The position numbers were made by a program, and so were the translations under genes. Below the pieces are notes generated by a model. That model saw only the letters and a list, made by a program, of their open reading frames with translations. It did no database searches and was not told the origin of the DNA. DNA of 64,000 nt, from NCBI RefSeq assembly GCF_000179915.2, contig NC_014963.1, positions 3,968,001 through 4,032,000 of the forward strand. Reading direction: 5' to 3'. Positions 15,830-58,011 of this stretch are shown here, in pieces (position 1 is the first letter of the stretch; every line of letters begins with the position of its first letter). The stretch is from Terriglobus saanensis SP1PR4. GTDB lineage: Bacteria > Acidobacteriota > Terriglobia > Terriglobales > Acidobacteriaceae.

Positions 15830-15874
15830 TGTGCCCCATTCTTTCGCGCTCTTTGCACGAAAGAATGGGGCACA
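15830..15874. repeat. Perfect 17-bp inverted repeat, member of a dispersed family
   Basis: TGTGCCCCATTCTTTCG (15830-15846) and CGAAAGAATGGGGCACA (15858-15874) are exact reverse complements with an 11-base loop. The right arm recurs exactly at 37496-37512, again inside a hairpin. The element sits between the site-2 protease gene and trpS, both minus strand. No T-run follows on the minus strand, so it looks like a mobile-type palindromic repeat rather than an ordinary terminator. Confidence 0.75.
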
Positions 15875-37471: not shown

Positions 37472-37548
37472 CCCCACACTTTCGCGATAAAACTGCGAAA
37501 GAATGGGGCACACAGCAGATCCCTTCGCTTCGCTACGGGATGACAAAT
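37472..37548. repeat. Dispersed palindromic repeat, fullest copy in the window
   Basis: It has a left hairpin, with CCCCA (37472-37476) and CTTTCGC (37479-37485) pairing with GCGAAAG (37495-37501) and TGGGG (37504-37508). A 36-base tail at 37513-37548 ends in ATGACAAAT. The 17-base CGAAAGAATGGGGCACA is shared exactly with 15858-15874, and the tail with 33589-33624 (32 of 36). It lies between two convergent genes. Confidence 0.75.
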
Positions 37549-53191: not shown

Positions 53192-56089
<2,898 letters not shown>

Positions 56090-56103
56090 AGGTCCATTTT
56101 TTT

Positions 56104-56172
56104 AAAAGCTTTGCCGTGGTATAGCTCATGGGTATACACTCTCCGCATGGGTCATGCCACGGCAAAGCTTTT
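56104..56172. promoter_or_regulatory. Palindrome-enclosed promoter of the second vapBC pair
   Basis: AAAAGCTTTGCCGTGG (56104-56119) and CCACGGCAAAGCTTTT (56157-56172) are exact reverse complements; allowing one mismatch extends them to 19 bases. Between and over them lie TTGCCG (56111-56116), 16 bases, and TATACA (56133-56138), a good sigma-70 promoter. The start ATG at 56147 is about nine bases past the -10 box, with no ribosome site, so the mRNA may be leaderless. The centre of the palindrome falls on the -10 box. It is probably the autorepression operator. Confidence 0.7.
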
Positions 56173-56410
56173 TCAAAATGGTCGCAGCCAGGCAGTGCGT
56201 CTACCCAAGGAGTTTCGTTTCGAGGGTAGTGAAGTTTCAATCCGGCGTGAAGGTTGCGCCGTAATACTTGAACCGGCAGTGAAGCGTCGTCCCCAGACTC
56301 ATGAAGAGGTGCAAGCCTTCTTTAAAGAGGTGGACGCGATGAAGGCTGGACCCGCCATTCCGGGTGGTCGAAATCAAGGTGAACTCAAACCACGGAAGAT
56401 CTTCGATTGA
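56147..56410 (+). CDS. vapB: VapB-type antitoxin (AbrB/SpoVT fold)
   Basis: This 87-residue antitoxin has an N-terminal swapped-hairpin DNA-binding domain ([20 protein letters not shown], then [16 protein letters not shown]), the common VapB/MazE-like pattern. A C-terminal toxin-binding region follows (residues about 50-87). ATG 56147 lies inside the palindromic promoter region with no ribosome site in front. The next gene starts in its stop (TTGA). It is expected to repress its own promoter together with VapC. Confidence 0.85.
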
Positions 56411-56817
56411 AATACCTGCTCGACACCAATTTCTGCATCGCCCTCATTGAAGAACGTGAGGTTCCCCGTCAGCGGTTGGAGCGTGCTCTCGTCGAAGGGT
56501 CTGCGCTCTATCTATCTTCTCTTGTTCTCTACGAACTCTCTTATGGCATTCATAAAAGTCGGCATCCCAAGACGAGCCGAGGGAGGCTGGACAGATATCT
56601 CCATCTCTTCCATGAAGTTCTCGATTTCACGTCCAAGGATGCAGAGAAGGCGGGAGAGATCCGCGCCAAGCTTGAAAAAGCGGCGAAACCGATCGGACCT
56701 TATGATGTACTGATCGCTGGGCAAGCACTAGCAAGAGATATGATTCTTGTGACTGCAAACGTCCGCGAATTCGAGCGAGTTCCGGGTCTCGTCTATCAGG
56801 ATTGGGAGCGCGGCTAA
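56407..56817 (+). CDS. vapC: VapC-type PIN-domain toxin
   Basis: This 136-residue PIN ribonuclease starts at TTG, overlapping the antitoxin stop. It has the acidic motif [13 protein letters not shown] with D6, E43 in [14 protein letters not shown], and a further Asp in [20 protein letters not shown]. The fold and gene pair fit the tRNA-cleaving VapC type (FitB-like), but the target is unknown. This is the second PIN toxin in the window, of a different subtype from that at 32002. Confidence 0.88.
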
Positions 56818-56820
56818 AGC

Positions 56821-58011
56821 TTACTTCCCCGCAAATACTCGTAAAAGTGGCGCATCATCTGCATCCCCCGACAACTCCCAGATCATCACACCTCCAAGAT
56901 GCTGCTCCCGCACATACGCAGCCTTGGCGTGGAGCGAGGTAGCGTCTTCGAAGGTGAGGAAGTTTTTGCCGTCATAGAGCCATGGTGCTTGTGAGATGGG
57001 GTCTCGATAGAGCTTGGCGTCCGGAGTGGCGGCGAGGATCTTTGCCGTGGATTGATTGAGATTCCCGCGCACCGGTCGGCCCGCTGTGCCAAGGCCATTG
57101 TTCTCGCCTGAGACTTCCGTCCATTGATACGCATAGAACGGGATGCCGAGGAGCAGCTTTTCGACGGGAGCGCCGTGCGAAGTGAAGTCGGCGATGGCTT
57201 TGCTGGCGGTGTCGGCGTTGGGATTGCTGCTGCGGAGAGGAGCGACGAGGCCGGTCGTATGGCTCCACGGGCCGTTGTAGTCGTAGGTCATGACACCGAT
57301 CTCATCCACCTCTGCGGCGACGCGCTGCCAGTCCACAGCTTCGATGTGGTCGCGGGTCGCACCCGCTGCAATCGAGAGCGTCAACCCTGGACGAGCGGCA
57401 CTCATTTGCCTGCGAAACTCTGCGAGGAGGGCGATGAAGTCTTCGTTCTGCGCGGCGTTGGGATACTCCCAGTCCACATCGAAGCCGTCGAAGAGTCCGG
57501 GAGCTTCGACGCCTGGAGCCAGGTGTCCGAGTACGAAGCGCTGGATGCAGGAGCGCACAAAGCCTTCGCGTACCTCAGACTGGGCGATCGCGGCAAAGTC
57601 CGACGCGCGACCTTCCAGTGAGAGAAGAATGCGGAGACGTGGGTATCTCTGCCTCAGCTTTTGTAACTGGTGGAAATTGCCCTTCAGGATCGCCGTGGGG
57701 TCGTCGGCGATACCGTCCACGCTATTCGCCATGGTGTAGGCGAGATTCATGTCCGCTTGCAGGTCAGCGACAACGCACTGGTTATCTTTGATAAATCCCT
57801 GCGCGTAGTTGATCTGCGTCAGTCTGTCCGCCGCGCCACTGTGCACTAGGTTGCCAACGAAGTAGTTGTCGTAGACACCCCATTGCGGGAAGTATCCCAC
57901 CACTTTTTCGTGTGTCTCAGCCGGAATCGAGGCAGCCATGCGGGCGCGATCCGCTGCGAACGCAGGTAAGGCAAGAGATAGAACAAATGCAGCAATCCAG
58001 GCAGATTTCAT
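56821..58011 (-). CDS. Secreted glycoside hydrolase family 18 protein
   Basis: This chitinase-like enzyme has 396 residues and a signal peptide (MKSAWIAAFVLSLALPAFAA). A GH18 TIM barrel covers about 36-395 with KVVGYFPQWGVYDNYF at the start. The catalytic DxxDxDxE motif is DGFDVDWE at 175-182, with acid Glu182. MTYDYNGPWSHTTGLVAPLR and WLYDGKNFLTFED line the substrate cleft. It has no chitin-binding or fibronectin modules, so it probably acts on soluble or peptidoglycan-like GlcNAc chains, or on fungal chitin. Cell context is unknown. Confidence 0.92.
   Translation of the reverse strand: MKSAWIAAFVLSLALPAFAADRARMAASIPAETHEKVVGYFPQWGVYDNYFVGNLVHSGAADRLTQINYAQGFIKDNQCVVADLQADMNLAYTMANSVDGIADDPTAILKGNFHQLQKLRQRYPRLRILLSLEGRASDFAAIAQSEVREGFVRSCIQRFVLGHLAPGVEAPGLFDGFDVDWEYPNAAQNEDFIALLAEFRRQMSAARPGLTLSIAAGATRDHIEAVDWQRVAAEVDEIGVMTYDYNGPWSHTTGLVAPLRSSNPNADTASKAIADFTSHGAPVEKLLLGIPFYAYQWTEVSGENNGLGTAGRPVRGNLNQSTAKILAATPDAKLYRDPISQAPWLYDGKNFLTFEDATSLHAKAAYVREQHLGGVMIWELSGDADDAPLLRVFAGK

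Follow-up and report, generated by a model that had tools for sequence, protein, structure and literature searches.

Toxin-antitoxin operons often lie behind active genes, and their autorepression is effective only as long as transcription from outside is excluded. The vapBC operon of Terriglobus saanensis SP1PR4 begins 57 bp behind gyrB, and its promoter is enclosed by a long inverted repeat, which raises the question of what this repeat does at a junction between a housekeeping gene and a toxin-antitoxin operon. The locus was analyzed within a stretch of 64,000 nucleotides, hereafter the window, in comparison with the whole 5.1-Mb genome, with genomes of the same genus and with a collection of vapB promoters. 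The features discussed below are listed in Table 1.

Table 1. Features of the gyrB-vapBC junction, with coordinates in the window.
Feature	Coordinates	Strand	Remarks and basis
gyrB (DNA gyrase subunit B)	53429-56089	+	Upstream gene in the same direction; stop codon at 56087-56089; its ORF as listed opens at TTG, a putative start
Left arm of the full imperfect repeat	56094-56130	+	Includes the perfect 16-bp stretch, TTGCCG (putative -35) and the first half-site of the operator; alignment, fold
Perfect 16-bp left arm, AAAAGCTTTGCCGTGG	56104-56119	+	Sequence, inverted-repeat search
Putative -35, TTGCCG	56111-56116	+	Weak, 4/6; read from the sequence
Predicted VapB/VapBC operator, TGGTATAGCTCATGGGTATACACTC	56117-56141	+	Two half-sites 13 bp apart; motif match
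Putative -10, TATACA	56133-56138	+	Inside the second operator half-site; read from the sequence
Right arm of the full repeat	56146-56181	+	vapB codons 1-12, start codon included; alignment, fold
vapB, 87 aa, MazE/AbrB-type antitoxin	56147-56410	+	ATG 56147-56149; PF04014; R. felis VapB2 chain 3zvk
Perfect 16-bp right arm, CCACGGCAAAGCTTTT	56157-56172	+	Codes for ATAKLF; terminates in a T tract, 56168-56172
vapC, 136 aa, PIN-domain toxin, tRNA(fMet) endonuclease type	56407-56817	+	TTG start overlaps the vapB stop by four bases (TTGA); PF01850

An earlier note on this DNA had described two perfect 16-base arms that frame TTGCCG-N16-TATACA, with the right arm inside vapB codons and the axis of symmetry on the -10 box. 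Inspection of the sequence confirmed each of these points: the arms are separated by 37 nt and the axis falls at position 56138, within the -10 hexamer. The repeat is the second longest perfect inverted repeat of the window when loops of up to 80 nt are considered. The window was also simulated five times with a first-order Markov model, which keeps the dinucleotide make-up, and no arms longer than 12 bp were obtained. The palindrome AAAGCTTT is present in each arm. When the whole 5.1-Mb genome was searched, the vapB promoter region matched its own reverse complement with 74% identity over 81 bp (E value of 7e-8), and no comparable second copy of the inverted-repeat region was found elsewhere. 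A gapped alignment to the reverse complement extended the repeat to two longer, imperfect arms with 30 identical columns out of 37. The full inverted repeat occupies 88 nt (56094-56181), from 4 nt past the gyrB stop codon to vapB codon 12, start codon included. The inverted repeat is therefore real and is the core of a larger hairpin that encloses the promoter and operator assigned to vapBC, and the downstream arm of this hairpin consists of the antitoxin's own first twelve codons.

The identity of the two genes as vapBC, also proposed earlier, was borne out by profile and structure matches. VapB matched PF04014 with an E value of 2.1e-9, above the gathering score, and its nearest solved relative is the VapB2 chain of R. 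felis (3zvk); its scores against the NCBIfam VapB models were below cut-off (58.6 versus 60, and 72.3 versus 100). VapC matched PF01850 with an E value of 2.4e-22 and, over its full length, tRNA(fMet)-specific VapC structure chains with E values down to 3e-26. It also fits the NCBIfam equivalog models but scores below their cut-off, and for this reason tRNA(fMet) is given as its likely rather than assured target. Apart from VapB itself, the genome gave no match to this antitoxin. The gyrB C-terminus was matched in 18 of 19 genomes of the genus, this one included, with identities of 79-88% in the other 17; none of the other genomes compared carries vapBC directly behind gyrB. A vapB homologue of the same genus (L002 1480-1764, genome G006) is located approximately 1.9 kb downstream of gyrB, shows a TATACT approximately six bases ahead of its ATG and has an altered DNA-binding loop. 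At the other end of the operon, vapC stops 3 nt short of the point where a convergent gene on the minus strand ends (56821-58011, chitinase-like by eye), and there is no space for a separate terminator at this junction (56815-56821).

The putative -35 and -10 hexamers of vapBC are separated by 16 nt. A scan for consensus promoters and for terminators with loops of 3-8 nt listed nothing at the vapB promoter or the hairpin. The start codon had been placed about nine bases after the -10 box, without a ribosome site; we find no Shine-Dalgarno sequence ahead of it, and the distance is 8 nt. Among relatives, for which start codons were assigned by rule, the nearest ATG is found at a median of 19 nt after the -10, and at 3-12 nt in just 7 of 142 loci. 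The geometry of the locus thus fits a near-leaderless start, with a predicted +1 at about 56145-56147, in agreement with the leaderless reading made before.

To locate the operator we used a set of 163 distinct vapB promoter loci, from which a motif was trained on the 162 others, leaving out the window locus. Upstream of vapB the commonest distance between TAT trinucleotides, if the 2-bp step within TATAT is disregarded, is 13 bp; it is found in 39% of the loci, as opposed to less than 1% of control regions. The resulting 25-bp motif, TGGTATATACTTTTGGTATATACCA, is estimated to be present in 94% of the 162 loci. The two strands of a single segment, the predicted operator of Table 1, gave the top two motif scores in the 64-kb window (16.4 and 13.9 bits). 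This position was found independently of the arms; it is almost wholly in the loop, shares with the 16-bp arms only the 3 bp at the end of the left one, and covers the -10. It is very likely that an operator of VapBC overlaps the -10, as had been proposed. The assignment of that operator to the 16-bp arms was not sustained, since the motif lies between them. A symmetric promoter can pass for an operator; here the relatives move the VapB site into the loop, and the arms need another explanation.

The predicted arrangement is related to that of the VapBC systems of the S. flexneri and R. felis type, which combine a MazE/AbrB-fold VapB with a tRNA(fMet)-cleaving VapC. It shares with them the protein families and an operator of two half-sites spaced by 13 bp over the -10. 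The same spacing is seen, in our own reading of the sequences, in the oligonucleotides used for gel shifts with S. flexneri VapBC, whose hetero-octamers bind operators at -10 and -35 (PMC3384007). The Terriglobus locus differs in that its half-sites are degenerate (TGGTATAGCT and GGGTATACAC), in that one operator pair was found where S. flexneri has two sites, and in its putative near-leaderless start and enclosing hairpin.

The possibility that the arms are a conserved operator of the family was rejected, and the expectation that the dyad would be kept in other vapB loci failed: none of 144 other loci matched the arms in length and position. Flank-to-flank inverted repeats outside the operator occur near the frequency expected by chance among 145 scorable loci, with the exception of the extremes. 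The longest repeat outside the motif is that of the window locus (13 bp), followed by L085 (11 bp) and L016 (10 bp), with 0.3 loci expected at 10 bp or more. Outer dyads were consequently not retained as a general vapB feature, there being little excess besides the window locus, L085 and perhaps L016; the 10-bp repeat of L016, at the same codons, is not pressed given the number expected at that length. The right arm encodes residues that are conserved in the antitoxin family (AKLF), which makes the left arm the derived side. The codons CTT-TTT found in the right arm are rare in relatives (3 of 124), an observation that is not decisive.

Several other vapB loci carry long dyads of their own. 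In L085, L033, L061 and L017 these dyads are real and have the operator half-sites within their arms, which is a different arrangement. Upstream of vapB in L033, L061 and L017 the operators are found within locus-specific perfect dyads of 12-17 bp, exceeding what the conserved half-sites need. In the alphaproteobacterial vapBC locus L085 (925-971) a hairpin with perfect 20-bp arms (z of -9.15) lies just before vapB and 23 nt past a co-directional ORF; it includes the operator half-sites in its arms, has no T tract and leaves the AUG mostly free. It can be considered a partial analogue of the Terriglobus arrangement. In a Rhizobium vapB locus (L082), between approximately 60 and 27 nt ahead of the RSQ codon, arms of 15 nt with one mismatch allow the second half-site of the operator to pair with the region of the start codon and might represent another start-codon lock.

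The position of the hairpin relative to gyrB suggested a different role. In 15 of the 16 other genomes of the genus in which the end of gyrB could be read, the stop codon is followed, at 13-57 nt, by the start of a terminator-like hairpin with a T-rich stretch; the stems are of 8-23 bp, one locus (L119) has no hairpin and in another (L121) it is weak. Between gyrB and vapB in the window the sole comparable structure is the hairpin described here, which starts 14 nt past the stop codon and has a 27-bp stem if one mismatch is allowed. It shares with bacterial intrinsic terminators, as represented by the gyrB terminators of the genus, a GC-containing stem right after the gyrB stop, an A-rich side upstream and a T tract downstream. 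On the other hand, its stem is longer than those of the relatives, its larger loop contains a promoter and an operator, and its right arm is inside the next gene. It is also unlike a textbook terminator in its long stem and in the partly folded loop of its perfect core. The T-rich tail, TTTTTC at 56168-56173, is short and pairs inside the stem.

A role in RNA had earlier been set aside with the argument that the left arm would not be transcribed. This overlooks gyrB, whose stop codon is 14 nt upstream of the left arm; RNA reading through from gyrB holds both arms and is predicted to fold strongly. The RNA from 56092 to 56182 is predicted to form one hairpin of -49.1 kcal/mol (z of -9.95), and none of 200 shuffled sequences was as stable. 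In three read-through RNAs the probability that the vapB AUG is unpaired was 0.000-0.003, as opposed to 0.995-1.0 in RNAs that start at 56146 or 56147 and 0.84-0.95 with a start at 56145. If the first half-site were to act as -10, the RNA would start at about 56132; it lacks the left 16-bp arm, and the third base of its AUG is mostly paired (0.14). When the fold was computed family-wide the window locus ranked second by energy and eighth by AUG accessibility, and because of the latter rank burial of the AUG is not by itself unique to this locus. Matches to the Rfam family mir-2009 were discarded; they are far under the gathering score and merely reflect a long hairpin.

Taken together, these properties lead us to propose that the repeat, in which the vapBC promoter is nested, acts as an insulator and would shield a near-leaderless, autorepressed vapBC from gyrB read-through; we assign this model a probability of about 0.6. 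RNA polymerase running past gyrB would make the hairpin, and a stem followed by UUUUUC in the usual position of a gyrB terminator may stop most of the gyrB transcripts. On transcripts that go on, the hairpin would conceal the vapB start codon and vapB would be left untranslated, as would vapC, given that it overlaps the end of vapB. The transcript of vapBC itself would start at approximately 56145-56147, would not include the left arm and could be translated from its 5' end, its promoter being repressed by VapB-VapC bound to the predicted operator. Because the hairpin would end or silence read-through from gyrB while the operon's own transcript escapes it, vapBC would remain under its own autorepression in spite of its location behind a housekeeping gene. 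The weak -35 counts against this model, as does the absence of such outer arms from the family as a whole; so do the long stem, the 37-nt loop of the core and the short T tract paired within the stem, at a place where the scanner, restricted to loops of 3-8 nt, lists no terminator. The complete version, with the vapBC promoter and operator nested in the gyrB terminator and one hairpin that ends gyrB and silences read-through, so that translation would be confined to the near-leaderless transcript under autorepression, is put forward tentatively, with rather less than even confidence.

There are precedents for such a design. In IS10, transcripts that enter from outside mask by folding the start site of a gene that could do harm, and the transcripts of the element itself do not; the gene protected there is a transposase instead of a toxin-antitoxin pair, and no homology is claimed. 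The predicted folds place the locus with the start-site sequestration of the T4 gene e and I-TevI type, in which RNA from upstream hides the AUG and RNA from an internal promoter frees it. The longer transcripts of T4 gene e form an inhibitory structure that lowers synthesis approximately 100-fold and the late transcripts, without the 5' part of the structure, are well translated; in I-TevI the start site is buried in the same way in long transcripts, a late promoter provides the escape, and the operator of the autorepressor overlaps that promoter (PMC3014915, PMC2988022). As in these cases, long upstream RNA of the Terriglobus locus would contain the two strands of the hairpin and have its start codon buried, and RNA from its own promoter would be without the 5' strand; the repression of the own promoter through an overlapping operator, as in I-TevI, is predicted for vapBC. 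The differences are that this is a chromosomal toxin-antitoxin operon behind gyrB, known from its sequence and from fold prediction, that a near-leaderless AUG and coding sequence would be buried in place of a Shine-Dalgarno sequence, that the repeat is long, and that the hairpin may double as the gyrB terminator. The locus is thus a plausible variation on a known regulatory design, and offers a compact and testable way of excluding read-through in which one repeat would serve as terminator, start-codon lock and operator enclosure.

The hairpin could also have arisen without a selected role. Template switching is known to take place at inverted repeats, and a foldback event could have copied the first codons of vapB, inverted, into the gap behind gyrB, with later quasi-palindrome correction keeping the core perfect. 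The left arm does resemble an inverted copy, since degenerated, of codons 1-12 of vapB with their flanks, and it is unique to the window locus. Yet the copy holds a plausible -35, sits exactly in the slot of the relatives' gyrB terminator, and its perfect core stops where the operator starts; that the 16 bp of the core are perfect and the flanks eroded suggests that the core has been kept, although recent correction would look alike. We regard this origin as the main rival of the insulator model, though unlikely, and give it more weight than the two explanations that follow.

Both of these assign the arms a function in DNA. In the model of the earlier note VapBC has its operator in the two 16-bp arms, and the complex would bridge them to block the polymerase. 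Their symmetry about the -10 and the distance of 53 bp between their centers, close to five helical turns, would suit such a bridge, as would the binding of S. flexneri hetero-octamers to two operators (PMC3384007). The family motif, however, has its best score in the window between the arms, while the arms themselves lack a TATA half-site and have no counterpart in the other loci, and S. flexneri VapBC bound 30-bp DNAs with one 13-bp-spaced half-site pair each (PMC3384007), so that long arms are not needed. This makes the model improbable. Still less credible, and very improbable in our judgment, is that the arms act either as paired sites of another regulator, one AAAGCTTT per arm, or as a cruciform extruded under the negative supercoiling behind gyrB. 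Extrusion is possible in principle for a repeat as long as this one, and AAAGCTTT is in both arms, but the copy in the right arm is accounted for by the Ala-Lys-Leu-Phe codons and there is no supporting motif or conservation. Moreover, a large loop makes cruciform extrusion unfavorable.

An unrelated repeat was observed elsewhere in the window. The sequence GAAAGAATGGGGCAC is present in three copies, two within 15830-15874 and one at 37497-37511, and the first two form an inverted repeat with 17-bp arms (15830-15846 and 15858-15874). The 5.1-Mb genome has 113 copies of it, 63 forward and 50 reverse, as opposed to 0 of a control pattern, and it is a dispersed repeat family whose members are at times arranged in inverted pairs.
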